Shown: positions 1 to 28,954 of the stretch, piece by piece | How positions within the stretch are numbered: position 1 is the stretch's first letter | Layout of the letters: each line of letters starts with the position of its first letter | Virus record (IMG/VR): IMGVR_UViG_3300037508_001314 | Coordinates: 1-46,213 of that record | DNA from: a virus | Strand: one strand, 5' to 3' | Length of the DNA: 46,213 nucleotides | Notes under the pieces: generated by a model | The model's database searches: none | What the model saw: the letters and a program-made list of their open reading frames with translations, nothing else | What the model was told of the DNA's origin: nothing | Made by a program: the position numbers and the translations under genes

Positions 1-127
1 CGCCGCATGGGTCAACGTCTTCTTCTGGAACGAGAACGGGAAGAAGATGAAGTTCACCGACAACTCGGCAGCCGAACGGCCCTGAGCCCCGTAGTGGTAC
101 ATCTTCTGCGCCTCATCCCACGCACGG
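1..127. repeat. Terminal overlap of a circular contig
   Basis: These 127 bases are identical to 46087-46213. The leftward giant gene reads through the join in frame only if one copy is removed, giving a circle of 46,086 bp. An exact 127-base overlap is the size expected from a de Bruijn assembler using k=127, so I read it as an assembly end rather than a packaged direct terminal repeat. Confidence 0.93.
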
Positions 128-3100
128 CCGGCATCCAAACCTTTCTCCCGCAGATGGTGGAACGTGGACGCCATCCAGTCGGTCGGAGAGAACCCGAGGA
201 TTCCGATCTCCTTGAACCACCGGTTGGTTGCTTCGATGTTGTCGAGGTCGTAGATGCCGCCAGAAGCGGCACGCATTTCCGCCACCCGGGCAGCGAACTG
301 GGTTTCGCCGATCGTCGCTTTCAACTTGCGGGGCGACGTGTTGAACGGCAACCCGATCCGTTTCCCGGAAGCGTCACGCATCGGACCCGCAATCTGGTTC
401 AACACCAACGCCTCCGTGTACCGGGACATGTCGAAGAACGGCGACAGAGTGAACCGCATCTTGTCCCGCAACGCCGCCAGGTTGTCGGCCAGATACCCGT
501 ACCGGGCCATGTTCGTGTAGTCCATCTTCGCTGCGACCCGGCCAGCGGCGGCGCCACCGATCGTGCCACCGAGCAAACCGCCCGCAGCGCCGGCAGCAGC
601 AAACTCCAACGTCCTCGCCAGTGACGGATCTTCCCCTTCGGGGGTTGTTGCTTCCGCACGGACCGCACCAAGCCCGGCACCAACGAAAGCACCCTTGGCG
701 CCGCCACTCGTCACGGCCCGCTTCAAAGCGGCCCCACCCGTCAACCGTTCGCCTTCCTTCGTCCCGGAGAACACCCGCAACGCCCCAAGCGCCTGGTTGT
801 TCTGCCGCAGTTTCGCTTCGATCGCATACAGACCCTGGTCGTGCCAGTCGGCGTACCGGCCGGCCTTCAGTCCCTGCCAGATCGCACCGGCATCACGATC
901 GCTATACCCGAGTTTCATCAACGTCTCAACAACAATCGACCGGTTCTTTCCCAACCCGAGATCCTGCAACGAACGGGGCAGGTCAGCGTTCCGGGCTGCG
1001 GTCGCACGCTTCGACAACCACGACATGTGAGCCAACTCGTCAGACAACTGGGCGTTGATCTGCAACTGGGGATCCAACACGAACTGGTACAGATCCTGCA
1101 TGATCTGGGCCGCCTCGGGGCCCTCAGCGTCGATCGCATCGACGCCACGAGCCTTCGCCAACTCTCGTACCACCGCAGCGGTACGGAACCGTTGAATCTT
1201 TGCAGCCAACTCGACCGGATGTTGCCGGGCAAAGAAGTTCCCCAACGTCATCGCATTCATGTGGCGGCGGTTCAGGTCAGCGAACTGGCCGGTCTGATGC
1301 AGCACCTCGTCCGGGGCCAGGAAGTCGGCGCCGTACACAACCCGGTAGCCCTGATCGTTTGCTGCTGCGGCAAGGTTCTTCAACTCGGCCGCCTCATCCA
1401 GGCGGCCGGCGTCAGTCAACTCCTTGATCAGACCGTCAAGGTCTGCTTCAGCGGCCCGATAGTTCGCTTCCTCCAACAGGGCCTGGCGGCGCAACTTCAA
1501 CGCATCCAAACCCTCGACAACCTGGCCGTCCTTGGTTCGCAACAGGACATCCATACCGAAGTCCTTCGCCCACCTTGGGGACGAGGCCTGCTCCTGGAAG
1601 AACGCCTTCAACGCCACATCGAACCCGTCGCTGACCGTCAACCCGTTCTGTTGGGCGATCCGGTTCAAGCGACGCAACGATGCCACATCGGCATGCTTCT
1701 GCAACCCCATCGCTTTGATCGCCTGGTTCAATTCGTGGGCCGACAACTGGCCGATCCGTCCGCCGAAAGCGTCCACTACCCGACTCACCATTGTCACATC
1801 ACCGGTCTGATCGACCGTGTCGACGGTCATCTTGGAGACCCGATGCCAGGCGTCAAACATGTCTTCAATGTCACGCAAACGGTCCGCCTCCGACAAGAAC
1901 GCCTGCTTGGTGAGGGTCGCCAATTTCTGCAACGTGAACCGGGACCGTGACGGTTCCACCTCGGACGCCAACGGCGAATAGTACGAGCCGGCCTTGCGGG
2001 CCTTCTCGCTGTCGTTTGCACGATCCAAGAAATAGGTGTCGTTCAACTTTTCGACCACCTCGTACGGGTCGTCGTTCGGACCCAGATCGTCCATGTGGTC
2101 CAGGAGACGCAACTTGCGGCGGGACGCCACCTTCACCTCGGACAGTCGGACCGAATCGAACAAGCCACGACCGATCTGGTCACGCAACGAAGTCGTCAAC
2201 GGCTGGTACACACCCCAGTTTCCAAACGAATCCAAAGCGTTCCCGACATACTCGACCAGTCCCGCCCGGAACTCTTCCGACGTGACCGGCATGTTCTCGC
2301 CCGACAGCAACTGGCGCATCGTCAGAGCGGCCTGCTCGTTGTGTTGCGAGATCGTTTCCGCCAACAGTTCCGGCGTCCACGGCACACCCGTCACGTTCCC
2401 AACATCGTCCACGTTCTCGATAGCGGACTGCATCTTCTGTTCGAACCGGCGACGCATGTTCCGCCTGGACCGGGACTCCTTCGTCACAATGTTCCACACC
2501 ACCTCTTCCTGGGTGGTGTTCTCATCGAACACTCGGATCTGGGCCACCAACTTGTTGCGGAACAGCCAGTAACGGCGACGCCAACCGTCCGGTCCGCCCG
2601 CCTGGGCCTGCAACGCTGCGGTGCGATCGATCGCCCCCATCAGCATCGTGTACCCCAAAGCGCCCGCAACGCTCGTTTCGTCCGTGCCGACATGCTCGGC
2701 GAACGCCGCCTTGAACGACCCGGTCTCGTTGATGCGGCGATCAAAGTTGGCGAACTCTTCTTCGTTCAACTTCGCTTTCATCGCATCGTACACAATTGAC
2801 GTGACCCGCTGATCGTCAGCCACCTGCTGGAACTCGGACAGTCGCATCAACTCGCCGGCCGGCCGAACCAGTTTCGACGCCAACTTCAACCCGGGAACGT
2901 TCTTCACCTTGTTCGCCCCGGCCACCACCACCCCACCGATCGTTGGCATCAACAGGCCGCCGGTAGCGCCGGCAGCAGCACCGAACGCCACATCAGTCGA
3001 GTCGTCACCCAACACGACACCCGCACCCGCACCAGCGATACCGCCCGCCACCGCACGCCCGTACGGGTTCCCCAAGAACCGGAACGCCCCACGGACAGCG

Positions 3101-4410
3101 TCACGGCCACCATTCACAAAGGTACCCGGACGGAAGATCGTGTACGGCGTCAACGCCCACTCGCCGACCAGCGACACTGCCGTGTTCGTGAACACCGAAT
3201 CGGCCGCTTCAGCGACCGACGACACGTCACCGAAACTCTTGCCCTCATACGACGGCAACAGACGGTTCTCGACCTGCGACACAAACCCGAGCCGCATCCC
3301 GGTCTGCACCATGCCACGGGCCGCAATCACCGGCGCCAACGCACGCCACTCCTCCATCGACCGGCCAACAGCAGAGGCGACACGGCCACCCTGCTGCAAC
3401 TTGTTCGCCAACAGTGACGCCTCACCCAACTGGGTGCCGGCGGCTCGCAACGCCGCCGTATCCATCACCGGCATCAACCGTTCCAACAGCCCACCTATAC
3501 CGGGCGCTTTGTACAGGCTTGACACTTTGCTGAACGCATTCACCGCCTCAACACCCCGAACGCCGAGGGCGCCCAGACGGGCAAAGTTCACGGCCGACCC
3601 GACACCCGACACCAGCAGGAACTGGTTGAGGGCGGGCACCACAATGTCATCCAACGGGCCCGTCATCGCATCGAACAGGTTCTTCGCAAAGTCGAACGGG
3701 TTCTTGGAATCGCCCACCTTCCGGAACTTGTCACCCCACGACGACCACTCTTTGCTGATCTGCCCGAAATCCCACCACAGGTCAAGATCGACAGCGGCAC
3801 GCATCAACCCGGACGGCGAAGTCCAATCGTTCAACGCTTTCAGAACGCCGTTCTCGCCACCGATCGGCACCGCACCCGTACGGTTCCCACGCAACCGGGC
3901 GTCATAGTCATCGAACATCATCTTGCGACGCAACGCCGACAGTTCCGTCGACCAAGACCCGTCAACCGTCCCGTTCTCCGGGGCGGCAAGGTAGCCACGT
4001 TCGATCGCCGACATCTTCCAACGCTCAACAGCGTTCACGTCGACCTGTTCACCGGTCCGCAACCCACGCAGCGACGTGACCAGATCGCCGGCCTGCTGCC
4101 ACCCGGTCCGTGCCAGCGGCCCGAAATTGTTCACTCCAGCGACCCGAAGTTGTACAGCAGGCTCGGGAGCGTCCTCAGGGTTCTCGTTGTGGTAGTCCCG
4201 ATCCATCCCGTGCAGGAACGCTGTCAACGCCCCAGGCGTGATCGCCGGGTTCGCAGCAAGATCCAACCGGACCTGATCGGGGATCGACGGCAACCGCCAC
4301 GTCGACTCGACCTGGCGGATCGCCCGCAAGTTCCCATCGATAGCGGAGGCCTTCAGGTTCGTGCCCGGCCCGAGCAACGATTCCTGCGAAAGCAGAGAAG
4401 TGTCAGTCAT
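1..4410 (-). CDS. Giant virion protein, N-terminal 1,470 codons (continues at 46086-45151)
   Basis: The ATG at 4410 opens a frame with no stop down to base 1. It continues across the circular join to a TGA at 45153-45151, for 1,781 residues in total. A G-run ribosome-binding variant (GGGGGG) precedes the start. The protein is mostly helical. It has two glycine/alanine-rich stretches typical of glycine-zipper membrane segments, near residues 450-490 and 1230-1290. I see no enzyme motif. It lies between the polyvalent protein and three other virion-type proteins in the late operon, so I infer an internal virion (ejection) protein that could help form the DNA channel through the host envelope. 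A tape measure is an alternative, but the long uninterrupted coiled coil expected of one is not evident. Confidence 0.85.
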   Translation of the reverse strand, partial: MTDTSLLSQESLLGPGTNLKASAIDGNLRAIRQVESTWRLPSIPDQVRLDLAANPAITPGALTAFLHGMDRDYHNENPEDAPEPAVQLRVAGVNNFGPLARTGWQQAGDLVTSLRGLRTGEQVDVNAVERWKMSAIERGYLAAPENGTVDGSWSTELSALRRKMMFDDYDARLRGNRTGAVPIGGENGVLKALNDWTSPSGLMRAAVDLDLWWDFGQISKEWSSWGDKFRKVGDSKNPFDFAKNLFDAMTGPLDDIVVPALNQFLLVSGVGSAVNFARLGALGVRGVEAVNAFSKVSSLYKAPGIGGLLERLMPVMDTAALRAAGTQLGEASLLANKLQQGGRVASAVGRSMEEWRALAPVIAARGMVQTGMRLGFVSQVENRLLPSYEGKSFGDVSSVAEAADSVFTNTAVSLVGEWALTPYTIFRPGTFVNGGRDAVRGAFRFLGNPYGRAVAGGIAGAGAGVVLGDDSTDVAFGAAAGATGGLLMPTIGGVVVAGANKVKNVPGLKLASKLVRPAGELMRLSEFQQVADDQRVTSIVYDAMKAKLNEEEFANFDRRINETGSFKAAFAEHVGTDETSVAGALGYTMLMGAIDRTAALQAQAGGPDGWRRRYWLFRNKLVAQIRVFDENTTQEEVVWNIVTKESRSRRNMRRRFEQKMQSAIENVDDVGNVTGVPWTPELLAETISQHNEQAALTMRQLLSGENMPVTSEEFRAGLVEYVGNALDSFGNWGVYQPLTTSLRDQIGRGLFDSVRLSEVKVASRRKLRLLDHMDDLGPNDDPYEVVEKLNDTYFLDRANDSEKARKAGSYYSPLASEVEPSRSRFTLQKLATLTKQAFLSEADRLRDIEDMFDAWHRVSKMTVDTVDQTGDVTMVSRVVDAFGGRIGQLSAHELNQAIKAMGLQKHADVASLRRLNRIAQQNGLTVSDGFDVALKAFFQEQASSPRWAKDFGMDVLLRTKDGQVVEGLDALKLRRQALLEEANYRAAEADLDGLIKELTDAGRLDEAAELKNLAAAANDQGYRVVYGADFLAPDEVLHQTGQFADLNRRHMNAMTLGNFFARQHPVELAAKIQRFRTAAVVRELAKARGVDAIDAEGPEAAQIMQDLYQFVLDPQLQINAQLSDELAHMSWLSKRATAARNADLPRSLQDLGLGKNRSIVVETLMKLGYSDRDAGAIWQGLKAGRYADWHDQGLYAIEAKLRQNNQALGALRVFSGTKEGERLTGGAALKRAVTSGGAKGAFVGAGLGAVRAEATTPEGEDPSLARTLEFAAAGAAGGLLGGTIGGAAAGRVAAKMDYTNMARYGYLADNLAALRDKMRFTLSPFFDMSRYTEALVLNQIAGPMRDASGKRIGLPFNTSPRKLKATIGETQFAARVAEMRAASGGIYDLDNIEATNRWFKEIGILGFSPTDWMASTFHHLREKGLDAGRAWDEAQKMYHYGAQGRSAAELSVNFIFFPFSFQKKTLTHAA

Positions 4411-4434
4411 CCTGACTGACACCCCCCGCAACAA

Positions 4435-4681: not shown

Positions 4682-7600
4682 TCATCCGGCCTCAAAGACG
4701 GGCCCAGAGCCGATCCGATTGTACTTGCGGTTCTCGGCAAACCTTCCGGTCACCGCTTCGAACACTTCTCGGGCAAACGGCCTTGGCGACGGCGAACCAA
4801 GCACCTCCGAGAACGCTTCGGCGACCATCTCCTCCACGTTCTCGGCCCCATACTGCGACAGGCGCTGAGCGAGACTTCTCTTGCCGCCGGCCCGTCGATA
4901 CATCTCTTTCAGTACAGACTTCTCCCACGCCTGATAGCCGGCCTCGCTGCCCGCCGTTCGGAACGACCGACGCAGCGCCTCGTGGGCAACGTGACCCAAC
5001 TCGTGCAACACCAGGCCAGTCACCGGATCATCTGTCTTGACGTAGAACCCTGAATCGACCATCGCCTGCGCCTCGGCCCGAGACTCGGCGTAGTTGTTCC
5101 AATGGTTTCCCGAGATCGCAATCTCCGACCCGCCCTCACCCCACGCCGCCCACAACCAAGCGTCCGATCCGAGATTCACCTGTTCGGGGGACACGCTCAC
5201 CCCGATCGTACGTAGATCGGCAACACGGAACATCTCGTACAGGGTCGGGTCGCCCATGAACCGGTCGACCGCATCATCGATGTGGGTTGCCATCACCGGG
5301 TCTAGATGCAACAACTTGTTGTTGACCCGATACCCGAGCCCGACCTGCAGCCCGTACTTGTCCAACAGTTCCGGCAACGGTGAAGCGATCCGCTGATGGG
5401 CCGGCATGTCGAAACTGTGGATCGTGGTTACCGTGCCACGCTTTGCTTTCGGCACAACCGTTGTTGCAGCAACCGGTTCGTCCCCGAGCCGCAACTCGAT
5501 CTTCTCCGCCGGCACACCGACACCCAGCAACGTGTCCCGCAACTGCACCGCAGTAGCGGCGTCAACCCACTGGTTGGCACGATCTGACGGGACGCCCGGC
5601 AACTTGTCTTTACCGGCCCGACCAGAAGCGGTCGCCTCAATCACGATCCGGCCGTCACGCTTCACGGCACGAACCAGACCGTCCCAGTTCTCTTGCAACG
5701 GTTGAACCGACAACACCGACGGAGGACCCGAACTGAACACGATCTGCTGACCGTCACGGACCGCTTCCATCATCGACGCCGGACGTTTCTTTCCGGCCCA
5801 CACCTCCGGAGGAACCGACACAATCACGTTCGGATCCTTGAACGTTGCCACACCCGATTCGTCCAACACGAACTGTTGGGCCCGTTCCACACGAGCGAAC
5901 GGATTACTGATTGGTAAATGCTTCGCCCGATCCTCGGGTACCCACGCATGCACCCCGTGCGGAGACACAAACTCAGGGTCCGCAGAGCGAGCCACTAACA
6001 GGTTCACGCCATCCGTGAACGAATGCTCACGGACCGTCTTGAAACCTTCCGGCGCCAACCCACGACCGTACACGGCATCTACCTGATAGCCCTGCTCACG
6101 CAGTTCCTTCACGACATCCATCACGCTCGCCTTGCCGGCCGGCTTCAAAGCCACCTTCCGGATACGGGTCTTGACACCCGTCTTGGACGGATCCACCATC
6201 ATTACAACGCTCGGCCCGGCTGGGCGCTGCTTTGTATCGTAGGCCGGGTTCCAACGAAACCGTTCTGTTTCCGTGAACCCCAGACGGGCGTAATAGTCGG
6301 GCAGATTGAACCCATCGGTGCGGGGAGCCATCCCGTCCAACGGGACATTCGATTCGAAATCCATCACCTGCGACGGAGCCAAACTGCCCGGAACGTAACC
6401 ATGCTCGTTCGGTTCGAACCCACGAACCGCCAGACCCGGCTCGGAACCGTTCACTCGCAACACTCGCACCGGGACGTGCGTCAACCCGGCATCGTTTGCT
6501 GCCGCCAAGCGGTGGTTTCCCTCCGTGAGACGAACCGTTCGTGACTCCGTGTAGTAGTTCAGAATCAACGGTTCCTTGAAACCGTCGTCCTGAATCGAAT
6601 CGGCCAGCGACGGAGTCTCCCCGCCCGGCGACACGGTCGGGTCATACCGCAAATTGTTGCCCGGCACACCCTCCAAAGCCGAGACGGGCATCATCTCCAC
6701 CGTATTCGACATCGTGTTGTTGCCGTACTTGGGACCCACATAGGGGACCGTGTTCGCAATCGACATGGTGGCCTGGTCGTAGGCGTCCAATTTCACGGCA
6801 CCCTCAGACATGGCGTACTTCACCATCTGCTCACCGAAACCTCGGGGAGCCTCAACGCCACGAAACACCTGCTGCAGGTCACCGTCCGGGGCAATAGCAA
6901 ACCCGGACGTACCCGTCTCGTCCACAAACAGGCGATGCCTCTTCAGATCGACACGAGGGTTGTCGGGGATCGGAGACGTACCGAACTCGTACAACGTGCC
7001 AGCGTCACGAGCGGCCTGCTCCCAGGCGTTCCGTGCAGCAACCCATTCGTCAACCGACACCTCATGCAACCCGCCAGGCGGATCCATCCGGACCGCACGT
7101 GCCGGCACCGTCCTCGCTCCCGGTACACCGTTGCCCGCCACCGTTTCAAAGTTCTTTGACCCGGCAGGCACCTGTTGACCGTCGGCCAACTCGACAACCA
7201 CCGTTTCCTGCGGGCTGAACCCCCAATGACCGTTCGGGAACGCAGCCAGCGGCCACTGCTCGGTTTCCACCCCCGGCACCTCGTCCCGCACTTGTGCGGC
7301 CAACGACTCAACGTCAGCGACCTGGCGGGGCGCCGACAATGCCCACTGATACGTCCCGTTGCCACGATCCAACGCTGGCGACAAATGGCGAACCTTTGCA
7401 GCGTTCTCTAACGAGGCGGGCCACACAAACCCGAGCGACCCGTCCGGCATGGCCTGCAGCCCCGACTTGGCGGCCTCCCCAAACACGAACGGCACCCGAC
7501 CATCGATCGCATTCAACGCTGCTTGCGGCCCGTCCGGGATCTCCCCCATCAACGCCTTGTAGATCGGATTCTCACCCTGGCCCGGAAGAACGATCCGGAA

Positions 7601-9622
7601 CGGGTTCCCGGCACTCCAGCGGCGCAAACCGTTCTGGGCGACCTGGGCGTCGTTCTTCAGGATCCGCCACACCTCCCAGACGACGCCTTGCACATCCGAT
7701 CCCGTCAACCCGAGATGCTGATAGTCGTCCACCAACTGGAACACGGTGTCCTGGATCAGGTCATACACGCTGTCCCCAAGGTCCTTGCCTTCAAGCACCT
7801 TGAAGTCCGACGAGGTCGCCAACCCGAAGAACGCATCGTGCTGGTGACGGTCAACCGTCACCACCGACGTGTCGCCCATCAAGTTCAGATAGAACGATTT
7901 CTGCTTGCGCCCCGACGTTGACCGGAACACGTCATCGGCGGACTCGTTGACCAACCGAAGAATCTTTGACAGATCCACCTTCGACAACTGGACGCCGGCG
8001 GGTCGGGACGCCGGCGTCGTCACACCGCCTTCCTCATCGACGCCCGGCCGATACTCGGGATACTGATCTTCGAACTTCGGGTAGCCCTTCGGAACTTTGC
8101 CGCCGTTGCTTTCGGCGGCCCGCAACTTGGCCGCCAGATAGGTGTCCTGCGCCGCCTTCTTGGCGTCTTCCCACTGCTTGATGGCGTTAGCGTTTGTCAA
8201 CTCTTCGTGGATCTGATCGAACACGTCGGCGGCGTTGACTTTCTTGCCGTCAACAACGACCATCAAGTTGGGACGTAGCGGTTTGGCATCGCCCTTAGGG
8301 GTAGCGAACTTGGCGAACTCGGGGCTCCTCAACCAGTCCTGGAAACCGGCGTCCTGAACGCCGACCCTGTTCGCCTCGGTCAGGGCCCGGACCGCCAAAG
8401 CAATGTTCCCTTCCCACTGCTCGGCCTCCGAAGAGAACGACACAGCGGCAGTCAACTTGCCCTTGTCGATCCACGGCATCTTCTCGGTCAGGCGGGCCAA
8501 CGCCTCATCGATCTGCTTGCCTGCCTTCGGATACCAGCCGGTACCGATGTCCAACGGTGCCGGCAACACACCCGGAAGGCCCTGGCTGCGAAGACGCTGA
8601 TCTTCCAGCCCGAGATCCAACAGGTACCGGAAACTCTCCAGGCCGTGGGAAGCGGCAACACGCACGTTGATCTGCTGCAACCGGGCCGACCGGACATCGG
8701 CACTGGTTAGTGCCGAACGACGATCCCACGAACGAGGCAACGTCACCCCCAACACAACACCGTCGGGAGTGAACTGCACCTCCTCGATCCGGGACACCAG
8801 ATCGAACGACAGGTCCGGTTCGGTCACGTCACGAGTCACGTCACCGAACTGGCGGACATAGTCCAACAGTTGCGCCTTCTTCTCGGCCGACATCTTCAAC
8901 GGGTCCGACATGAACTCGGACCACAACCGGTGGAAGTTCTTGGACCGTGACTGCACGATCAGGCCCGAGTTCACAGCGGTATCGATCTTGGCGAAATCCA
9001 ACTGGGCGGCAGGCGCACGGCCCTCCGGAGCGATGTCGGTCAACATGTCCGCATACGTGTCAAGAACAGCCGCAGCAGACGCAACCCGCTCGACCGACGC
9101 ACCAGGCATCAGCCAGTGGGCTGCTGCCTGCGTGTCCGGAGCCGTGATGATGTCGGCAGCACGACCCTTCAAACCGGGATGCTGGCGGCGCAACAACTGG
9201 CCCGCCGGCGAGAACGCATCAACACGTTCCGCCAACCCCAGATTCCGACCCCAATCAGACACCCGCATCGCAGGAGCGGCACCCACACCGCCCGCCATCT
9301 GACGTTCCCATGACCGGGCCGCAGCCAACTGGCGGGCACCCATCACGGCCCCGCCCACACCCAACGCCGTCATCCCACCCATGAACAACTTCTGCTGCCA
9401 CGAAGCCTCAGAGCCGAACATGTCATCCAACTGGCCGACAGCACCCACCGTCGAGTTCGACGCCAGGTCACCCAGCGACGACATCAAGTCACCGAACCCC
9501 CAGCCGGCGCCACGCTGCGACGTGTGGGGCGTCACAAAGTCAAACGCCGACTCCGCAAAGTTTCCGACCGACTTGGCCGCACCACCCAACGTGTCGCCAA
9601 GCGAATCCAACCAATCGGTCAC
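4682..9622 (-). CDS. Polyvalent virion protein with ParB-like, GNAT-like and zincin motifs
   Basis: The protein has about 1,646 residues. I chose GTG 9622 because it overlaps the previous stop as GTGA and follows an AGGGG site 8 bases upstream; an in-frame GTG at 9667 is the alternative. Features in order are: an N-terminal glycine-rich hydrophobic region (about 75-100); a KSFYLNL...VTVDRHQHDAFF segment (about 570-600) like one found in other phage polyvalent proteins; half of a GNAT-like fold (about 895-950, GFAIAPDGD...GFGEQMVKYAM); a ParB/sulfiredoxin-like domain (about 1000-1060, with EGNHRLAAA at 1034); the second GNAT half with YYARLGF (about 1108); and a zinc metallopeptidase motif HELGH at 1540-1544. 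The family logic is a virion-carried multi-enzyme protein injected with the DNA. The targets are unknown. Confidence 0.85.
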   Translation of the reverse strand: MTDWLDSLGDTLGGAAKSVGNFAESAFDFVTPHTSQRGAGWGFGDLMSSLGDLASNSTVGAVGQLDDMFGSEASWQQKLFMGGMTALGVGGAVMGARQLAAARSWERQMAGGVGAAPAMRVSDWGRNLGLAERVDAFSPAGQLLRRQHPGLKGRAADIITAPDTQAAAHWLMPGASVERVASAAAVLDTYADMLTDIAPEGRAPAAQLDFAKIDTAVNSGLIVQSRSKNFHRLWSEFMSDPLKMSAEKKAQLLDYVRQFGDVTRDVTEPDLSFDLVSRIEEVQFTPDGVVLGVTLPRSWDRRSALTSADVRSARLQQINVRVAASHGLESFRYLLDLGLEDQRLRSQGLPGVLPAPLDIGTGWYPKAGKQIDEALARLTEKMPWIDKGKLTAAVSFSSEAEQWEGNIALAVRALTEANRVGVQDAGFQDWLRSPEFAKFATPKGDAKPLRPNLMVVVDGKKVNAADVFDQIHEELTNANAIKQWEDAKKAAQDTYLAAKLRAAESNGGKVPKGYPKFEDQYPEYRPGVDEEGGVTTPASRPAGVQLSKVDLSKILRLVNESADDVFRSTSGRKQKSFYLNLMGDTSVVTVDRHQHDAFFGLATSSDFKVLEGKDLGDSVYDLIQDTVFQLVDDYQHLGLTGSDVQGVVWEVWRILKNDAQVAQNGLRRWSAGNPFRIVLPGQGENPIYKALMGEIPDGPQAALNAIDGRVPFVFGEAAKSGLQAMPDGSLGFVWPASLENAAKVRHLSPALDRGNGTYQWALSAPRQVADVESLAAQVRDEVPGVETEQWPLAAFPNGHWGFSPQETVVVELADGQQVPAGSKNFETVAGNGVPGARTVPARAVRMDPPGGLHEVSVDEWVAARNAWEQAARDAGTLYEFGTSPIPDNPRVDLKRHRLFVDETGTSGFAIAPDGDLQQVFRGVEAPRGFGEQMVKYAMSEGAVKLDAYDQATMSIANTVPYVGPKYGNNTMSNTVEMMPVSALEGVPGNNLRYDPTVSPGGETPSLADSIQDDGFKEPLILNYYTESRTVRLTEGNHRLAAANDAGLTHVPVRVLRVNGSEPGLAVRGFEPNEHGYVPGSLAPSQVMDFESNVPLDGMAPRTDGFNLPDYYARLGFTETERFRWNPAYDTKQRPAGPSVVMMVDPSKTGVKTRIRKVALKPAGKASVMDVVKELREQGYQVDAVYGRGLAPEGFKTVREHSFTDGVNLLVARSADPEFVSPHGVHAWVPEDRAKHLPISNPFARVERAQQFVLDESGVATFKDPNVIVSVPPEVWAGKKRPASMMEAVRDGQQIVFSSGPPSVLSVQPLQENWDGLVRAVKRDGRIVIEATASGRAGKDKLPGVPSDRANQWVDAATAVQLRDTLLGVGVPAEKIELRLGDEPVAATTVVPKAKRGTVTTIHSFDMPAHQRIASPLPELLDKYGLQVGLGYRVNNKLLHLDPVMATHIDDAVDRFMGDPTLYEMFRVADLRTIGVSVSPEQVNLGSDAWLWAAWGEGGSEIAISGNHWNNYAESRAEAQAMVDSGFYVKTDDPVTGLVLHELGHVAHEALRRSFRTAGSEAGYQAWEKSVLKEMYRRAGGKRSLAQRLSQYGAENVEEMVAEAFSEVLGSPSPRPFAREVFEAVTGRFAENRKYNRIGSGPVFEAG

Positions 9623-12169: not shown

Positions 12170-14068
12170 CTAACTCGGCAACGTGATCGACCCCGACACG
12201 TTCACCAAACGCACCTCACGACCACCCTCAACACCCGGAAACATCGGACGCCCAAACGGGTCAGCAGCAACCTCAGGCGACAACACACGCCCCTCAGCGA
12301 AATCGATCACCCGACGATGCTTCCGAATCCGATGCGGCACACGGACACGGGGGTCGAACATCGGGACGATCGCCCGCTGGGCTATTTCCCGGATACCTAA
12401 CTCGGCGAACCAGAGCGCCATCACCAGGTCGCTGGTTCGTCCCATCGGGAACGTGACCAACTGGTCTTCTAGGGATCGGAGCCGGTTTCGTGATACGAGG
12501 TCGGCGGCCGGGAGCGAGATCTGCCGGTTGTAGAACAGGGGTGCCATCGATTCGACACCGAACTGGGGGTCCCATTTGTTGTGGCCGGTGGTGATGTGGG
12601 GTACGACCCGAACTCCTCGGCTGGTGAGGTAGCCGATGATTTCCTGGTTGTATTGGACGAGTTGTGATTGCAGCCCGTTCGATTCGACTCGGAGTTCACG
12701 GAGCGGGTACCGGTCGGCCCAGTCGAAGATCTGGTCACGTAACTGGGGTGCTTTCATCTGTTTGGCGTTCACCATGTCGACCAGGTAGCGGCGTTGTGTG
12801 GCCGGGTCAACGCCGAGCAGTACGAGTGCGGTGTAGCCGGCTTGCGAGTTGGCGCCGGCCGGGTCCAGGCCGGCTACCAGCATCCAGCGAGGATCATACG
12901 AGCCGAGGACACGTTCCGGGTCGTGGCAGGCCTCGACAATGTCGGGCGGGAAACTGGCTCCGAACCCGGGGGTGTCAACGTTCTGGTACACCAACTGCCA
13001 TTGTTCGGACGACATCGATTCTCGTTGCAGTTTCGCTGATTCATATCCGAAATGTTCGGGCCACAGGGTGTTCTGTGATTCTTCGTCGATGATGCACGGG
13101 TAGCGGATCACTTGGAACGATGGCAGGTTCTGCAGATGCGAGTAGATGTCGCCGGCAGACACTCGGGTTCCGATGAACACGAGTTTGCCGGACTTGCCGA
13201 CACGGGACGCCGCTTCTTGCGTTGCCCATTTCAACATCTCTTGGACTCGTTCAACGTTCCGCTGGTTCTCCAGGTCAGCGATGTCGTCGAACAGGATCCT
13301 GTCGGCACGAACACCGTAGATCTGGCCGCCCACACCGAGACAGGAAACCGACGGGTCTTTCTCGGCGCCTTGCCGGCCGGCAACGTAGATCTGTGACACG
13401 TTCCAGCCTTTGCCGCCGGGCTGTTGGAACGGGCCCCAGTCCTCAACCAGGTTGCGTTCAGCGTCCTGGTACATGTCCACGTCGGTCAGGTGTTTCACGA
13501 TCGAATACAGGAACCGTTCGGCGAGACGTTGACCTTTCGACACGATCAGGGTTCGGCTGTTCGGGTCACGGCACAGTTCGTACACGGTCGAATGGACGGT
13601 TCCGACGGTCGATTTCGCATGGTAGGGCGGCAGGTTCACAAGGAGCCGTTTCACGGCCGGGTCGGTGATGGCCGACATCATCTCGATGTGGAACCCGGGA
13701 AGTTCGTGGTGGATACCACAGTCGGGGCATTCCAGGTTCCCGAAGTACATGCGGGAGAACTCTTCGAACGGCGGTACCCGCCGTGTCTCACCGGTCACCA
13801 GCAGGGGCCGGTCGGGGGCCGGATCGGGGCTGGCTGCGATCCGTTCGGCCCGAGCCTGTTCGGATCGGGCCTGCTGTTCGTCCAACACTTTCTGCTGTTT
13901 CCGCAAGTTCTCGTTCAACCGGGAACGGGTCACACCGAGCATGCGTGCAGCGTCGGTTTGTGACATTCCGTCAACCAACACTTTGTCGATAGCGACCTTC
14001 ATCCGGGCCTGCACTCCAAGGTGCCGGTAGCGGGCGGCCATCTGCTCTGCGGCTTTCGTAGTTGCCAT
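12170..14068 (-). CDS. terL: Terminase large subunit with N-terminal HTH
   Basis: This 632-residue DNA-packaging motor shows a P-loop-like LPPYHAKST (146-154, K152), Walker B ILFDD (258-262), coupling motif VFIGTR (297-302), and RNase H-like nuclease residues D402 (GLDPAG), E462 (VESNG) and D547 (TSDLV). Ahead of the ATPase, residues 20-60 form a helix-turn-helix (MSQTDAARMLGVTRSRLNENL), a job usually done by a separate small terminase; no small-terminase gene is obvious nearby. The ATG follows GGGGGGTGG. It is the first gene of the leftward late operon. Strand composition flips near 12.45 kb, inside the codons for the last 90 residues. Confidence 0.95.
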   Translation of the reverse strand: MATTKAAEQMAARYRHLGVQARMKVAIDKVLVDGMSQTDAARMLGVTRSRLNENLRKQQKVLDEQQARSEQARAERIAASPDPAPDRPLLVTGETRRVPPFEEFSRMYFGNLECPDCGIHHELPGFHIEMMSAITDPAVKRLLVNLPPYHAKSTVGTVHSTVYELCRDPNSRTLIVSKGQRLAERFLYSIVKHLTDVDMYQDAERNLVEDWGPFQQPGGKGWNVSQIYVAGRQGAEKDPSVSCLGVGGQIYGVRADRILFDDIADLENQRNVERVQEMLKWATQEAASRVGKSGKLVFIGTRVSAGDIYSHLQNLPSFQVIRYPCIIDEESQNTLWPEHFGYESAKLQRESMSSEQWQLVYQNVDTPGFGASFPPDIVEACHDPERVLGSYDPRWMLVAGLDPAGANSQAGYTALVLLGVDPATQRRYLVDMVNAKQMKAPQLRDQIFDWADRYPLRELRVESNGLQSQLVQYNQEIIGYLTSRGVRVVPHITTGHNKWDPQFGVESMAPLFYNRQISLPAADLVSRNRLRSLEDQLVTFPMGRTSDLVMALWFAELGIREIAQRAIVPMFDPRVRVPHRIRKHRRVIDFAEGRVLSPEVAADPFGRPMFPGVEGGREVRLVNVSGSITLPS

Positions 14069-14121
14069 GCGCCCCCACCCCCCTCGTCAGTGAACCGGTC
14101 CGCCACTAGATCTAGATCAAG

Positions 14122-14153
14122 ACCGGCCGCTACAACACGCAGTAGCGGCCGGT
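14122..14153. other. Perfect 12-bp inverted repeat (hairpin 1)
   Basis: ACCGGCCGCTAC (14122-14133) pairs fully with GTAGCGGCCGGT (14142-14153) around an 8-base AACACGCA loop. No U-run follows on either strand, and it lies upstream of both flanking operons, so a simple terminator is unlikely. A cruciform, operator or structured leader is possible. Confidence 0.8.
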
Positions 14154-14184
14154 ACTAGTCAGCCTCGACAGAACCAGAAGAGAC

Positions 14185-14208
14185 GCCCAGCCCCTTCAAG
14201 GGCTGGGC
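14185..14208. other. Nine-bp hairpin 2
   Basis: GCCCAGCCC (14185-14193) pairs with GGGCTGGGC (14200-14208) across a CTTCAA loop. The same arms recur 56 bases later (14241-14263), so this is a duplicated element rather than chance. Confidence 0.8.
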
Positions 14209-14240
14209 CACCAGAACTAGTCCTTGTACTTGATCTAGTA

Positions 14241-14263
14241 GCCCAGCCCTTCAGGGGCTGGGC
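14241..14263. other. Nine-bp hairpin 3, near copy of hairpin 2
   Basis: GCCCAGCCC (14241-14249) pairs with GGGCTGGGC (14255-14263) across TTCAG. The arms are identical to hairpin 2 and only the loop differs, so selection or duplication has kept the stem. It directly precedes the CTAG iteron array. Confidence 0.8.
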
Positions 14264-14265
14264 AT

Positions 14266-14303
14266 CTAGTCACTAGCAACTAGTAACTAGTAACTAGATC
14301 TAG
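14266..14303. repeat. Seven-bp-periodic CTAG iteron array
   Basis: CTAG starts at 14266, 14273, 14280, 14287 and 14294, exactly 7 bases apart, and again at 14300. The unit is close to CTAGTAA. Five more CTAG sites lie at 14106, 14112, 14155, 14217 and 14235. CTAG is normally rare in bacterial and phage DNA, so eleven in 200 bases is striking. Short iterons like this are typical of replication-initiator, repressor or terminase binding sites; which applies here is not shown. Confidence 0.85.
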
Positions 14304-14315
14304 TACCAGGCCCAA

Positions 14316-14540
14316 ATCCTTGCAACCGGCACAAGACAAACCACAAGCAGGCCCCCAAACACCGGGAGCCCCAGACACCAACAACAAGATCTCGACCAGC
14401 CAGTCTACAACCACCCCCCAACCACAGGTACGGAACCACCCCAACCAGCACACGCCCAGCACACCAAGCACCCCAACAACCAGCAACAAACCCGAACACC
14501 ACAAACAAACCAACAAACCACCCAATAGCCGGCCCCCCTG
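14316..14540. other. Extremely AC-rich (GT-rich on the minus strand) non-coding tract
   Basis: About 220 bases contain almost only A and C on the plus strand, with very few G or T. Both strands are open, but the encoded peptides are low-complexity (Pro/Thr/Asn/Gln on plus; Val/Leu/Gly/Cys on minus), so I do not call a gene. If transcribed rightward it would be a C-rich, G-poor RNA like a Rho-loading site. If transcribed leftward, the GT-rich non-template strand could favour an R-loop. A melting region of an origin is another option. Confidence 0.6.
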
Positions 14541-14898
14541 TTCCTGTTCTTTCCGTCCATAAGGCCCCTTCTACGATCGATCAGAGGCGGCGTTTATGCA
14601 CCCCGGTTGCCGAGGGCGTCGGGGCACCCCCGGTCGGCGCATCGGCCCAGGCCAGGGCCCCTGTCGACCTGTTCAGGGGTCCAGGCCGGTCAGGGCCGGT
14701 GCGCTCGGCCTCCGGGCCCGGGCAGCACCACGTCGAGGGCTCGGCGACCTCGGCCGGTGGCCCGATCACAGGACACAGGCGACCGGTGTCGCCCGCCGAG
14801 GGGCGATCCGGGGGGCTCCGGGCCCAGGTCTGGTGCTGGCCCGGGTGACAGGTGTGTGGGTGGCTGGTTTGTCCCCTGGTTGGGGGACTTGGGGTCGA

Positions 14899-14916
14899 GT
14901 GTTACGATCGTGTTAC
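14899..14916. promoter_or_regulatory. Direct repeat GTGTTAC around GATC
   Basis: Two 7-base repeats separated by GATC(G) lie 17 bases before the first 16-bp early element, in the presumed early control region. This could be an activator or repressor site. No convincing -10/-35 pair is visible. Confidence 0.4.
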
Positions 14917-14932
14917 AGGGTGCGGGTTGATG

Positions 14933-14948
14933 CTGGACGGGTCCTGGA
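14933..14948 (+). promoter_or_regulatory. Early 16-bp element, copy 1
   Basis: CTGGACGGGTCCTGGA, partly palindromic (GGAC-GG-GTCC). Six copies share the consensus CTGGACKGGTSCWGGA. Each is in a non-coding early region and reads in the direction of local transcription. An operator or stoperator is the simplest reading; no conserved -10 box follows. Confidence 0.6.
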
Positions 14949-15286
14949 TCGGGTGTACCGTGTCCTGTGTCGGCCGGGTTCGCCTGGTCGGTGGTCGAGG
15001 TTGCCGGTCCCTGTGACGACCGGTCCGCTGTTTGGCAAGTGAAGCGCACTGGCTGCCCCACCTGGGCCGCTCGGCTTGGTCCCCGGTAAGAGGGGGGAGG
15101 GCTGGGCGGGTTGGGTGGTGCGGGTGGCTGGTGGGCGCAAGATGACGTGTTCTCTCTTCCCTTGCGGGATCGCCTGGCTTCGGTCGGGTGGTCCCCGGGA
15201 GCCTCTGGCCGGTGTGGTTGGGGGTTGCCGGGGGCTGGCGGTTGCCGGTCCCCCACCTGCGGGTGGTGACTGAAGGAGAGATTGAG

Positions 15287-15523
15287 ATGGCGACGATTGT
15301 TGATTCGATCGAGGTGCGTGTCGTGGTGGCCGAGGTGGCTGCTCTGGTGCACCAGTTGATTGGGCCGGTGCATCCGAAGTCGACGCAGACGGCTCGTGGC
15401 AAGACCGAGGCCCAGCACCACATCGTGGACGTGTTTGTCCGGGCGTTGTTGGAGACGTGGGCGACGAAGGACGGCCCGCAGTTGGCTGATGCGGTGCTGG
15501 TGGGTGCGCCCGCCGAGGGGTGA
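15287..15523 (+). CDS. Small early protein, unknown (cassette gene 1)
   Basis: A 78-residue protein, mostly helical, with SIEVRVVVAEVAALVHQL at the N-terminus and a histidine pair mid-protein (EAQHHIVDVFVRALLE). The ATG at 15287 follows AAGGAGAGATTGAG, a leader shared almost letter for letter with cassette genes 2, 3 and 6. No family is recognised. It is the first gene of the ribozyme-separated array and the only one whose upstream ribozyme appears truncated. Genes in this position in temperate phages often act on the host early in infection, but that is only context. Confidence 0.8.
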   Translation: MATIVDSIEVRVVVAEVAALVHQLIGPVHPKSTQTARGKTEAQHHIVDVFVRALLETWATKDGPQLADAVLVGAPAEG

Positions 15524-15526
15524 CAT

Positions 15527-15585
15527 GGTCGAAACCGGCCGGTGGCCGGTCCTGTGCGGGTGGTTCCCGCACGGCTGATGAGACA
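15527..15585 (+). ncRNA. Type II hammerhead ribozyme 1
   Basis: Stem II 3' strand GGTC (15527-15530), core GAAA (15531-15534), stem III CCGGCC/GGCCGG with a GGT loop, then GUC with cleavage after C15551. Stem I is nine pairs (15552-15560 with 15566-15574, one U-G pair) and a TGGTT loop. Core CTGATGA is at 15575-15581 and stem II 5' strand GACA at 15582-15585. All invariant hammerhead residues are present. Cleavage would separate gene 1 from gene 2. Stem II is weak here (three pairs plus a G-A mismatch). Confidence 0.88.
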
Positions 15586-15608
15586 AACCGACTGAAGGAG
15601 AGATTGAG

Positions 15609-15893
15609 ATGAGTGGAGCGTTGGAGTTGCTGGATGCCCAGTTGCGACAGGCCGTGTCGAACCGGGAATGGCACCGGGAGGCGCTGGAGGCCGCCCGGGC
15701 CCAGTTGGCCCGGTGCATCACGAGGGTCGCCGAGGCTGAGACTGCTGTGGCGGACTTGCAGCGGGAGGTGTTCCGGGCGTTGGGGCCGGTGCTGCAGGCG
15801 TCGTTGGGTTCGGTCGCCTCGGTCGAGGTGACGGTGCTGGACGACGCCGGTGAGGCGCTGTGGCGCCACTGGGGTGTGCTGGTCGAGGACTAG
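15609..15893 (+). CDS. Small early coiled-coil protein (cassette gene 2)
   Basis: A 94-residue protein. Residues 5-60 are a long heptad-rich helix (LELLDAQLRQAV...AETAVADLQREV) likely to form a coiled coil, followed by a short beta-rich end (SVEVTVLDDAGEALWRHWG). ATG 15609 follows AAGGAGAGATTGAG, 24 bases after ribozyme 1. The TAG stop (15891-15893) is built into stem II of ribozyme 2. No family is recognised. Confidence 0.8.
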   Translation: MSGALELLDAQLRQAVSNREWHREALEAARAQLARCITRVAEAETAVADLQREVFRALGPVLQASLGSVASVEVTVLDDAGEALWRHWGVLVED

Positions 15894-15955
15894 TCGAAAC
15901 CGGCCCCTGCGGGGGCCGGTCCATGCCGGGTGGTGCCCGGTGTGCTGATGAGACA
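15892..15955 (+). ncRNA. Type II hammerhead ribozyme 2
   Basis: GAAA is at 15896-15899. Stem III is CCGGCCCC/GGGGCCGG closed by a TGCG loop (UNCG type). The GUC site ends at C15921. Stem I pairs CATGCCGGG with CCCGGTGTG (two G-U pairs) around TGGTG. CTGATGA is at 15945-15951, then GACA. Relative to ribozyme 1, both stems I and III change on both strands yet stay paired. The gene 2 stop codon TAG overlaps the stem II strand TAGTC. Confidence 0.9.
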
Positions 15956-15978
15956 AACCGACACAAGGAGAGATTGAG

Positions 15979-16602: not shown

Positions 16603-16665
16603 CGTGTCGAAACCGGCCGGTGGCCGGTCCGTCGGGGTGACCTCCCGGCGCTGATGAGACAGGTC
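16601..16665 (+). ncRNA. Type II hammerhead ribozyme 3
   Basis: Stem II pairs TGTC (16605-16608) with GACA (16658-16661) and is extended past a G-G mismatch by GAC/GTC. GAAA is at 16609-16612. Stem III is CCGGCC/GGCCGG with a GGT loop. Cleavage is after C16629 of GUC. Stem I is CGTCGGGG with TCCCGGCG around TGACC. CTGATGA is at 16651-16657. It separates genes 3 and 4. Confidence 0.9.
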
Positions 16666-16682
16666 GAGAAGGAGAAACAGAG

Positions 16683-16907
16683 ATGGATACCAACAAGGTT
16701 CAGGCCCGGGTGCGACAGGTTGCCGAGGCGTTGTTCGACAACGCTCACCGGTTCACGTGCAGTGAGGCCGAGGCGGTGTGTGACCTGTTTGCCGAGGTGG
16801 GCCTCGGCGGGCTGGTCGACGGGTTCCGGACCAGGCATGCCGAGGAAGACGAGGTCGGCGACCTTCACAAGGTGGTCGACGGTGTCGGGGTGTTCTGCGT
16901 GTTCTAG
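16683..16907 (+). CDS. Small early protein, unknown (cassette gene 4)
   Basis: A 74-residue helical protein. The segment ALFDNAHRFTCSEAEAVCDLFAEVG followed by an acidic HAEEDEVGDLH stretch is typical of small actinobacterial and phage proteins of unknown role. ATG 16683 follows AAGGAGAAACAGAG, 17 bases after ribozyme 3. The TAG stop (16905-16907) overlaps ribozyme 4 stem II, as in gene 2. Confidence 0.78.
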   Translation: MDTNKVQARVRQVAEALFDNAHRFTCSEAEAVCDLFAEVGLGGLVDGFRTRHAEEDEVGDLHKVVDGVGVFCVF

Positions 16908-16962
16908 TCGAAACGGCCTGCGGGCCGTCCGTCGGGGATGGTTTCCCGGCGCTGATGAGACA
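16906..16962 (+). ncRNA. Type II hammerhead ribozyme 4
   Basis: GAAA is at 16910-16913. Stem III CGGCC/GGCCG is capped by TGCG (UNCG loop). GUC ends at C16929. Stem I pairs CGTCGGGG with TCCCGGCG, extended by an A-T pair around TGGT. CTGATGA is at 16952-16958, then GACA. Stem III is one pair shorter than in the other copies. The preceding gene's TAG is part of the TAGTC stem II strand. Confidence 0.9.
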
Positions 16963-16985
16963 GACCAACTGAAGGAGGAATTGAG

Positions 16986-17290: not shown

Positions 17291-17350
17291 TGTCGAAACC
17301 GGCCTCGTGGCCGGTCCTGTGCGGGTGGTTCCCGCACGGCTGATGAGACA
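17291..17350 (+). ncRNA. Type II hammerhead ribozyme 5
   Basis: TGTC (17291-17294) pairs with GACA (17347-17350). GAAA is at 17295-17298. Stem III is CCGGCC/GGCCGG with a TCGT loop. Cleavage is after C17316. Stem I is the same nine pairs and TGGTT loop as ribozyme 1. CTGATGA is at 17340-17346. It separates genes 5 and 6. Confidence 0.9.
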
Positions 17351-17373
17351 AACCAACACAAGGAGAGATTGAC

Positions 17374-17876: not shown

Positions 17877-17946
17877 CGTGTCGAAACGCCCCCCTGGTGG
17901 GGCGTCCGGTGGAGGTGGCTCCTCCACTGCTGATGAGACAAGCCGT
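17876..17946 (+). ncRNA. Type II hammerhead ribozyme 6
   Basis: TGTC/GACA (17879-17882, 17937-17940) is extended past an AGC bulge by ACG/CGT. GAAA is at 17883-17886. Stem III is CGCCCC/GGGGCG. Cleavage is after C17906 of GUC. Stem I pairs CGGTGGAGG with CCTCCACTG around TGGCT. CTGATGA is at 17930-17936. Nearly every helix position differs from ribozyme 1 yet pairing is kept, which is strong covariation evidence. Confidence 0.92.
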
Positions 17947-17961
17947 GAATGAAGGAGAAGC

Positions 17962-18321: not shown

Positions 18322-18393
18322 AGGCGAAACCAGACCAGGATGCTAGACGGATCCTGGTTTGGTCCACCGGTGGATGCCGGTGCTGACGAGCCT
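18322..18393 (+). ncRNA. Type II hammerhead ribozyme 7 (divergent, CUGACGA core)
   Basis: Stem II is AGGC/GCCT (18322-18325, 18390-18393), so both strands changed relative to ribozymes 1-6. GAAA is at 18326-18329. Stem III is 12 pairs with one G-U (18330-18341 with 18351-18362), loop GCTAGACGG. GUC is cleaved after C18364. Stem I CACCGG/CCGGTG closes TGGATG. CTGACGA is at 18383-18389; position 7 is the one variable core base. The stem III top carries a 16-bp element. Confidence 0.9.
18343..18358 (+). promoter_or_regulatory. Early 16-bp element, copy 4
   Basis: CTAGACGGATCCTGGT, the most divergent copy (three mismatches), embedded in the loop and 3' arm of ribozyme 7 stem III. Confidence 0.45.
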
Positions 18394-18417
18394 GTCAGGA
18401 CAACAAAGGAGGGATCC

Positions 18418-18972: not shown

Positions 18973-19008
18973 GCAATGAGGCCACCCCTCCTGGGGTGGC
19001 CTCATTGC
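18973..19008. terminator. Strong bidirectional hairpin terminator
   Basis: A perfect 16-bp stem (18973-18988 with 18993-19008) with a TCCT loop, followed by GTTTCC on the plus strand. It sits between convergent transcripts: the rightward cassette array ending at 18940 and the leftward lysin operon ending at 19054. Confidence 0.9.
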
Positions 19009-27514: not shown

Positions 27515-27762
27515 ACATCCGTGCAGCCCTCATAGGCTATGACGACCTGGAGTTGAATGTGGCCGACCGGCAGGTGGTGCGTGCCATGTACCGTTCATTG
27601 TCGGAGACGCAAGGTAAAGAGGTTGCCCGCTGGGAAGCGACCCGGCTGGCGGTCCAACTGGACGCCATGCGGCTTCGCCTTGACGATCGGCACCGGTGGA
27701 TGCTTGAACGGTCGGCCTGGCTGGCCGCCGTTGAACAGGCCCGGCCGGGGGTGGCCCGGTGA
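27511..27762 (+). CDS. Small helical protein, unknown
   Basis: An 83-residue protein from GTG 27511, overlapping the upstream stop and the downstream start by 4 bases. It is strongly helical (RMQ-free arginine/leucine-rich segments such as LAVQLDAMRLRLDDRHRWMLERSAW is typical). No motif is recognised. The overlaps place it in the nucleotide-metabolism and recombination operon. Confidence 0.72.
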   Translation: MNIRAALIGYDDLELNVADRQVVRAMYRSLSETQGKEVARWEATRLAVQLDAMRLRLDDRHRWMLERSAWLAAVEQARPGVAR

Positions 27763-28289
27763 GGATCGGTGTCGACATCGACAACGTCGTCCTCGACTGG
27801 CAGAACGCCTGGGCCGACGAATACCAGAAATGGTTCGACAAGTACATCCCGGTCGACAAATTGGGGGTGTGGGATGCGGCCCTGTCCGCCACCCATTTCC
27901 CCGACTGGGACGAGTTCTGGCACTGGTTCCAAGCGGCACGGATCTGGGACAAGATGGACTATGTGCCGGGCGCTGCCGGCGGGCTCTACCAGTTGCAGCA
28001 CCTCGGGCACACGTTCATGTTTGTCACGGCCCGACCCGAACACGGTGAGCCGTCGGCACGCCAGTTGGCTACCGCCTGGAAGGTGCCGGTCGACTTCCTG
28101 AACGACACGTCGAAGCATCTCGCCAAAGTGAACGTGTGGGTTGACGACTCGCCCGCCGTGCTGCAGAACCTCGCCAACCACAACCGGAAAGCGATCAAAC
28201 TGTTGCGCCCCTGGAACCAGGACGCACCAGCAACCTGGGTGGCCGAGGACTGGCCGCAAGTAATCGAAATCCTGAAGGGGGAAATCTGA
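27759..28289 (+). CDS. 5'(3')-deoxyribonucleotidase, HAD family
   Basis: A 176-residue protein with HAD motif I GVDIDNVVLDW (nucleophile D6, acid D8), motif II VTAR, a lysine before the C-terminal motif, and motif IV WVDDSP. This layout matches NT5C-type deoxyribonucleotidases that dephosphorylate dNMPs. With the dNMP kinase directly downstream it probably adjusts the deoxynucleotide pool, for example by degrading unwanted nucleotides. GTG 27759 overlaps the previous stop; a one-base overlap joins it to the kinase. Confidence 0.85.
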   Translation: MRIGVDIDNVVLDWQNAWADEYQKWFDKYIPVDKLGVWDAALSATHFPDWDEFWHWFQAARIWDKMDYVPGAAGGLYQLQHLGHTFMFVTARPEHGEPSARQLATAWKVPVDFLNDTSKHLAKVNVWVDDSPAVLQNLANHNRKAIKLLRPWNQDAPATWVAEDWPQVIEILKGEI

Positions 28290-28954
28290 TGGTGGACGGA
28301 CCGCTCGTGATCGGCATCGGCCATGTTGCCCGAGTCGGCAAAGACACGGCCGCTGAAGCACTGTGTCGGGATCTCGGTTTCGTGCGTCGTGCGCTAGCCG
28401 ACCCGTTGAAAGAGTTGGCGATGCGGACCGACCCGCTCGTGACCTCGATGACCCGCACCCAGAACACGAACATCGGGCACGGCCGGCTCGCCTGGGTTGT
28501 GCAGGGCATGGGATGGGAAGGGGCGAAAGACTCCTACATCGAGGTGCGCCGGGTCCTGCAGAACTTGGGTGTTGCTGCACGGGACACGTTCGGGCCCACG
28601 TTCTGGGTGGATCAACTCATGTCGTGGATTGAGCGTTCGGGACACGAACGGATCGTGGTTCCTGATGTCCGATTCCCGAACGAGGCCGAAGCGATCCACC
28701 GGGCCGGCGGTCTGGTGGTGCGTATCGACCGGCCGGGCAGTCGTACCGACGGGCACGTGTCCGAGACAGCGTTGCGTGACTGGGACGGCTGGGATCACGT
28801 CATCGTGAACGACCGGTACCCGATCGATCTGCAGACCGACATCGTGAACTGGGCACGTGACGTGCTGCAGCAACGCACGGTCGGCAAGGCGAAGGCGAAG
28901 CGGATGAAGGCTGCTAGCGGAAGTGGCGACGATGCGCTGGTATCGGAGGGATGA
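28289..28954 (+). CDS. Deoxynucleoside monophosphate kinase
   Basis: A 221-residue protein. GIGHVARVGKDTAAEAL (9-25) is the variant P-loop of phage dNMP kinases (GHxxxGKDT), followed by a LADPLKELA lid-side motif, RVLQNLGVAARDTFGPTFWVDQL and VVPDVRFPNEAEAI, all characteristic of this family. It phosphorylates dNMPs to dNDPs for phage DNA synthesis. It overlaps the deoxyribonucleotidase upstream and the sigma-like gene downstream. Confidence 0.9.
   Translation: MVDGPLVIGIGHVARVGKDTAAEALCRDLGFVRRALADPLKELAMRTDPLVTSMTRTQNTNIGHGRLAWVVQGMGWEGAKDSYIEVRRVLQNLGVAARDTFGPTFWVDQLMSWIERSGHERIVVPDVRFPNEAEAIHRAGGLVVRIDRPGSRTDGHVSETALRDWDGWDHVIVNDRYPIDLQTDIVNWARDVLQQRTVGKAKAKRMKAASGSGDDALVSEG

Follow-up and report, generated by a model that had tools for sequence, protein, structure and literature searches.

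Why should 11 of the 28 CTAG sites of a virus genome lie within 198 bp (14106-14303), right beside the large terminase gene? The window, i.e. the whole stretch of DNA analysed here, is a 46,213-base IMG/VR virus record whose ends share an identical repeat of 127 bp, in agreement with a closed assembly circle; the contig of locus L003 represents the same virus (one mismatch in 8,364 bases). Late genes run leftward from terL (14068), across the record start, to about 30.8 kb, and the early genes run rightward from about 15.2 kb in an operon that includes helicase, primase and exonuclease genes. The cluster is located in the gap between them (14069-15211), the only divergent gap of the window, 37 bp upstream of terL, and a previous sequence-only reading had thus placed it correctly between divergent operons next to the terminase. 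TerL relatives were found on contigs of two Acidimicrobiales MAGs, which suggests Acidimicrobiales as host, and none beyond these two turned up among 397 genomes searched in the order around G006; the uncultured virus is probably actinobacterial. A KorA-like match at the N-terminus of the window's TerL was rejected, being below the Pfam cutoff and absent from seven relatives scanned. The features referred to below are:

12170-14068, minus strand: terL, encoding the large terminase subunit, which has a helix-turn-helix at its N-terminus
14105-14304, minus strand: the complete element, in which 11 CTAG surround the hairpins; proposed 5' leader RNA of the operon that begins with terL
14122-14153, minus strand: perfect 12-bp hairpin, CTAG on either side
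14185-14208, minus strand: second hairpin, with identical 9-bp arms
14241-14263, minus strand: hairpin GCCCAGCCC-loop-GGGCTGGGC, CTAG on either side
14266-14303, minus strand: CTAG array of AT-rich heptads, six CTAG, five at 7-bp steps
14310-14540, minus strand: G/T-rich stretch (composition when read in the sense of terL: A 0.04, C 0.13, G 0.45, T 0.37)
14588-14612, minus strand: conserved motif ACCGGGGTGCATAAACGCCG, core 14592-14604; putative packaging signal

A cluster of CTAG sites bracketing hairpins

CTAG starts at positions 14106, 14112, 14155, 14217, 14235, 14266, 14273, 14280, 14287, 14294 and 14300. Five of these sites (14266-14294) follow each other at exact 7-bp steps, with a sixth 6 bp further on, and this array occupies -236 to -199 relative to terL. 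Counts, scatter and resampling tests confirmed both the 11 sites and the periodicity that had been noted earlier, with all coordinates. The window as a whole shows no excess of CTAG (28 sites, shuffle mean 34.0), and the other approximately 46 kb hold 17. When 28 sites were scattered uniformly 20,000 times, no 200-bp stretch received more than five, and 11 were never reached; first-order resampling of the local 200 bp (n=5,000) gave a mean of 4.2 CTAG, with 11 or more in 0.22% of resamples, and the five-fold heptad was never obtained. The CTAG cluster is real and not a product of scatter. The view that CTAG is nearly the rarest tetramer holds in the terL coding sequences of relatives (97 seen vs 265 expected).

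The CTAG sites bracket three perfect GC-rich hairpins (14122-14153, 14185-14208 and 14241-14263). Two of these, with identical 9-bp arms, and an exact 10-bp inverted repeat (14112-14121/14229-14238) had been recognised before; the 12-bp hairpin, a perfect 11-bp terminal inverted repeat (14105-14115/14294-14304) and the self-folding of the CTAG array into a 13-bp hairpin (14264-14299), which includes one G.U pair if the minus strand is RNA, had not. The element folds far better than its shuffled versions both as RNA (z -9.9) and as DNA (z -9.6), none of 200 shuffles equalling it in either case, and the fold alone thus does not separate RNA from DNA. In addition, palindromic words pair with themselves anywhere, so that the pairing of CTAG within the fold is partly automatic. 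No Rfam family reached the gathering threshold in 14069-14310, the record contains no second copy of the element, and 13900-14700 had no DNA match among 50,697 phage records. No description of a CTAG/CUAG leader or of hairpins in a late leader was found in the parts of the literature available to us.

To the right of the array, the 230 nt from 14310 to 14540 have an A+C content of only 17% when read in the sense of terL, and no other part of the window is as strongly biased in this way. This stretch is possibly an upstream part of the leader proposed below; the opposite strand is C-rich and G-poor, as Rho sites are.

The corresponding position in related phages

In the CTAG test of the 500 nt upstream of terL at 128 loci with a TerL relative, the strongest loci after the window and two twin-contig loci were L204 (11/12), L044 (7/10), L025 (6/11), L065 (4/4) and L077 (3/4). 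L204, whose TerL is 48% identical to that of the window and has no close relative in viral_contigs, carries ten CTAGs at -185 to -82, which surround a GCCAGCC hairpin and are spaced first by 6 and then by 5 bp (leader fold z -3.7, matched by one of 200 shuffles). Successive hairpins of L044 and L025 are set apart by single CTAGs. Conservation, which had been proposed as a check of the element, is therefore mixed: L204 has a cluster too, and L044 and L025 have CTAG between their hairpins, yet neither is seen in the nearest relatives, as L155 (TerL 70%) has hairpins and no CTAG upstream of terL, and L156 (TerL 53%) has hairpins and no CTAG cluster. The helix-turn-helix of the L155 TerL is near-identical to that of the window, whereas that of L204 differs, yet CTAG arrays are present there; the presence of CTAG thus does not seem to track the sequence of this domain. 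What the relatives have in common at this site are the hairpins.

Across leaders in general, CTAG is about as frequent as composition predicts (108 vs 115.6 expected in 80 non-redundant leaders without the window and L204). A general enrichment of terL leaders in CTAG (151 vs 56.8 expected) was considered and dropped, because it disappeared under the leaders' own first-order model when the window and L204 were left out; the apparent enrichment reflects the avoidance of CTAG in coding sequence. The association of CTAG with hairpin flanks is a different matter. It is the strongest among the 24 ACGT words, even without the window and L204, and in 49 GC-rich leaders (again without these two) of 59 CTAGs that are not part of a hairpin, 18 are at most 8 nt away from one, compared with 159 of 1234 for the pooled words (p 2e-4). 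AGCT and TAGC rank next at hairpin flanks, and the relevant word may thus be wider, e.g. CTAGCT.

CTAG arrays with 7-bp steps were detected in 72 IMG/VR stretches, nine of which encode a TerL of this family. Most of the 72 are simple repeats of unrelated origin and were discounted. In the eight TerL-bearing stretches other than the window's twin the heptad array precedes terL by 0.18-3.7 kb, with about five lineages represented, while CTAG arrays with 6-bp steps are upstream of terL in five of eight cases and downstream in three. Heptad CTAGATC arrays occur 0.2-1.2 kb upstream of terL in L092, L139, L140 and L148, which are GC-poor phages unlike the window; in L139 and L148 the array directly precedes an apparent small terminase gene, as judged by eye.

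Evidence for a proposed leader RNA

Ten leaders of Streptomyces phages (Beephvirinae-like) were fetched; Stella, which is without hairpin 2, was left out, leaving nine. In hairpin 2 of these nine phages, five of ten pairs are changed on both sides, while 95.6% of cells are paired; the unpaired cells come from FlowerPower, which is out of register in the alignment. The covariation score of 0.50, compared with at most 0.10 for slid partners, was reached in none of 500 shuffles. Compensatory changes were likewise observed in the hairpins of L044, L016, L027 and L064, whose TerLs are 83-93% identical, and a scan for the L016 group revealed no new leader, the L016 leader being without a DNA match in 50,697 phage records. 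Covariation is seen in the leaders of relatives and not in that of the window, which has no diverged alignable copy in the collections searched.

The position of the hairpins relative to promoter-like sequences points in the same direction. Of 63 GC-rich leaders, 23 have a TATA-like box, which in 18 cases is positioned between -187 and -290 relative to terL, and within 200 nt of such boxes 33 hairpins lie downstream and six upstream (p 1.4e-5). In L064, L027, L044, L016 and L025 the first hairpin starts 7-10 nt past the box. Hairpin density itself shows no peak at terL and stays similar up to 1 kb upstream of it. The edge of the window's array, at -236, falls inside the range of the TATA-like boxes of its relatives, but the 700 nt that precede terL in the window contain no such box, and no promoter of the sigma-70 type was detected in 13900-15400.

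A further indication comes from wobble pairs. Single wobbles in leader stems, read on the terL-sense strand, are G.T in 43 and A.C in 14 cases, compared with 95 and 86 in the coding control; the excess has a composition-corrected p of 0.0023 and amounts to 26 to 7 when counted leader-wise. The test becomes weaker when a single member represents the L016 group (p 0.011) and within 300 nt (p 0.07-0.08), and no significant G.T excess was found 400-800 and 800-1300 nt upstream. Taken together, covariation, the order of TATA-like boxes and hairpins, and the wobble bias moderately favour RNA over DNA. As the window has no TATA box, promoter or diverged copy, the RNA interpretation of its own element draws on the relatives and on the one G.U pair in the array hairpin.

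The leaders of FlowerPower, Manuel and other Beephvirinae, in which a terminal-repeat end, a promoter-like TATATA, covarying hairpins and terL follow each other, are among the closest parallels in layout. They are distant, with TerLs about 30% identical, and contain one to four CTAG in the leader and no array.

A putative packaging motif

CCGGGGTGCATAAAC, located some 290 bp further right and kept in relatives, makes a better candidate for packaging than the CTAG element. The window has one GGGGTGCATAAAC, and L155 and L156 carry it upstream of terL as well; the core GGGTGCATAAA is found in L180 and L204, and GGAGTGAGTCCC is kept in all ten Streptomyces phage leaders compared. The terminal repeats of FlowerPower and Manuel, 253 and 276 bp long, both end with ...GGAGTG|AGTCCCC, about 21 bases past GGGTTGTTAAAC or GGGTTGTTAAC, and the position of GGGGTGCATAAAC in the window matches the place of the motif near these ends. 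Based on this likeness of short motifs, ACCGGGGTGCATAAACGCCG is a probable packaging signal, and the packaging cut would perhaps be at about 14555-14580, which is 260-290 bp rightward from the CTAG element. The TAAAC within the motif may resemble a KorA half-site.

A search with CCGGGGTGCATAAAC found 15 stretches, and a TerL neighbour was present only in the twin (L090), in L229 (from the contig of L156) and in L235 (from the contig of L155). The other 12 have no TerL match and look like chance occurrences. The region of the motif had no DNA match among 50,697 phage records.

Possible roles of the CTAG element

The hairpins, the clustering of CTAG, its position at hairpin flanks in several relatives and the covariation in the relatives named above are direct observations; whether the window's element is transcribed, where the transcript starts and what it does has to be deduced from them. 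The explanation we prefer, and to which we give an even chance, is that the CTAG region is the structured hairpin 5' leader RNA of the leftward late mRNA. The late mRNA would begin with terL, and the CTAG region would be the leader of an operon of about 30 kb, with four hairpins in series (the CTAG array, the two GCCCAGCC hairpins and the 12-bp hairpin). CUAG words at the flanks would extend or join the stems, and selection would preserve the pairing rather than the stem sequence. In FlowerPower and Manuel, the transcript would accordingly begin at the TATATATA box and contain the hairpins in its leader, and in the window packaging would cut about 290 bp further right, at the GGGGTGCATAAAC motif. 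The leader may influence the transcript emerging from the polymerase, most likely as an antitermination, terminator-block or stability element. In the accessible part of its description (PMC9378689), the put RNA of phage HK022 comprises about 70 nt with two stem-loops of shared sequence and follows the early promoters. Like put, the proposed leader would consist of hairpins that follow a promoter at the start of a phage message and act on the transcribing polymerase; it differs in that the window's element is about 200 nt long, has four hairpins, precedes the late operon and belongs to leaders whose stem sequence is free among relatives.

The AT-rich CTAG heptads might instead be sites for a late activator or repressor, or a stand-in for a TATA box, the hairpins being a separate matter. 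The array is located at -236 to -199 of terL, where relatives carry TATATA, and both the window and L204 are without a TATA-like box and have arrays at about that place. Steps that vary between 7, 6 and 5 bp, and the lone CTAGs that separate hairpins in L044 and L025, do not suit a phased array, and the array is self-complementary as a hairpin; we give such a promoter or operator array a low but appreciable probability. A little less probable still is a cosB- or pac-like region bound by the terminase as DNA, just inside the genome end. In phage lambda, cosB lies between cosN and the terminase genes, and the window's element, with its repeats, would similarly lie between the probable packaging end and terL, whose product has an N-terminal helix-turn-helix; the eight heptad arrays upstream of terL in IMG/VR also fit. 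The CTAG spacing, however, is not kept and is not tied to the helix-turn-helix of TerL, as L155 and L204 illustrate, the 6-bp arrays occur on both sides of terL, and the motif shared with terminal-repeat ends is 290 bp away. Of the earlier suggestion of a pac/cos-proximal site, the proximity to terL and to a probable packaging end thus stands, while the conserved end-like motif itself lies to the right of the element.

Two further explanations are unlikely. Short direct repeats at fixed steps are reminiscent of iteron origins, and an origin with iterons or an R-loop start would fit the minimum of the cumulative GC skew, which was indeed found at 14-15 kb, and the G-rich non-template strand at 14310-14540 for leftward transcription. 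The skew also follows the divergent gene strands, though; moreover, the heptads hold a palindromic word, and repeat spacing is not kept in relatives (7 bp in the window, 6 and 5 bp in L204, no CTAG in L155 despite its nearly identical helix-turn-helix). Iterons or binding sites for the TerL helix-turn-helix, as suggested previously, are therefore unsupported, and an origin is very improbable. Hardly more probable is a mobile or neutral repeat, i.e. a MITE-like insertion or a slipped heptad repeat. The perfect 11-bp terminal inverted repeat would suit the former and the scatter of simple CTAG heptads over unrelated contigs the latter, but the element is present in a single copy in the record, no target duplication is visible by eye, and it recurs at the matching place in L204 with other spacing.

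Additional features of the record

Six type II hammerhead ribozymes that reach the Rfam cutoff, which is striking for a single operon, are arranged in series on the plus strand (15527-15592, 15892-15962, 16605-16668, 16906-16969, 17291-17357 and 17879-17948), all with an intact CUGAUGA and GAAA core and lying in the gaps that separate consecutive small genes where the early operon begins; a weak seventh (18322-18397, plus strand) is below the cutoff. Clusters of hammerheads around prophage genes are known, according to the part of PMC3088659 available to us. The early operon also contains a perfect 16-bp hairpin with a 4-nt loop (18973-19008). Two giant late proteins are encoded by this 46-kb phage: an open frame of at least 1,478 codons (1-4434, minus strand, continuing past the record start) and, adjoining it, a 1,646-codon gene with a ParB-like stretch (4682-9622). 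A tandem repeat of diverged copies, with a period of about 126 bp, is found at 33658-34505. Genes for an NT5C 5'-nucleotidase and a deoxynucleotide monophosphate kinase are adjacent at 27759-28951 (plus strand), an arrangement also present in some phages with modified DNA bases.

Implications for actinobacterial phages

To our knowledge, little is known about how actinobacterial phages switch on their long late operons and keep reading them. A hairpin leader that keeps its pairing but not its sequence, next to an otherwise rare word, would be relevant to this question, and the leaders of FlowerPower and Manuel share its layout; the likely packaging signal of this phage group would move to a specific short motif. 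More tentatively, such leaders could form a new class of leader RNA in a broad group of actinobacterial phages, in which tandem hairpins of free sequence, joined by CUAG as a recognised or stacking signal, may control the transcription or the survival of a 30-kb late message.
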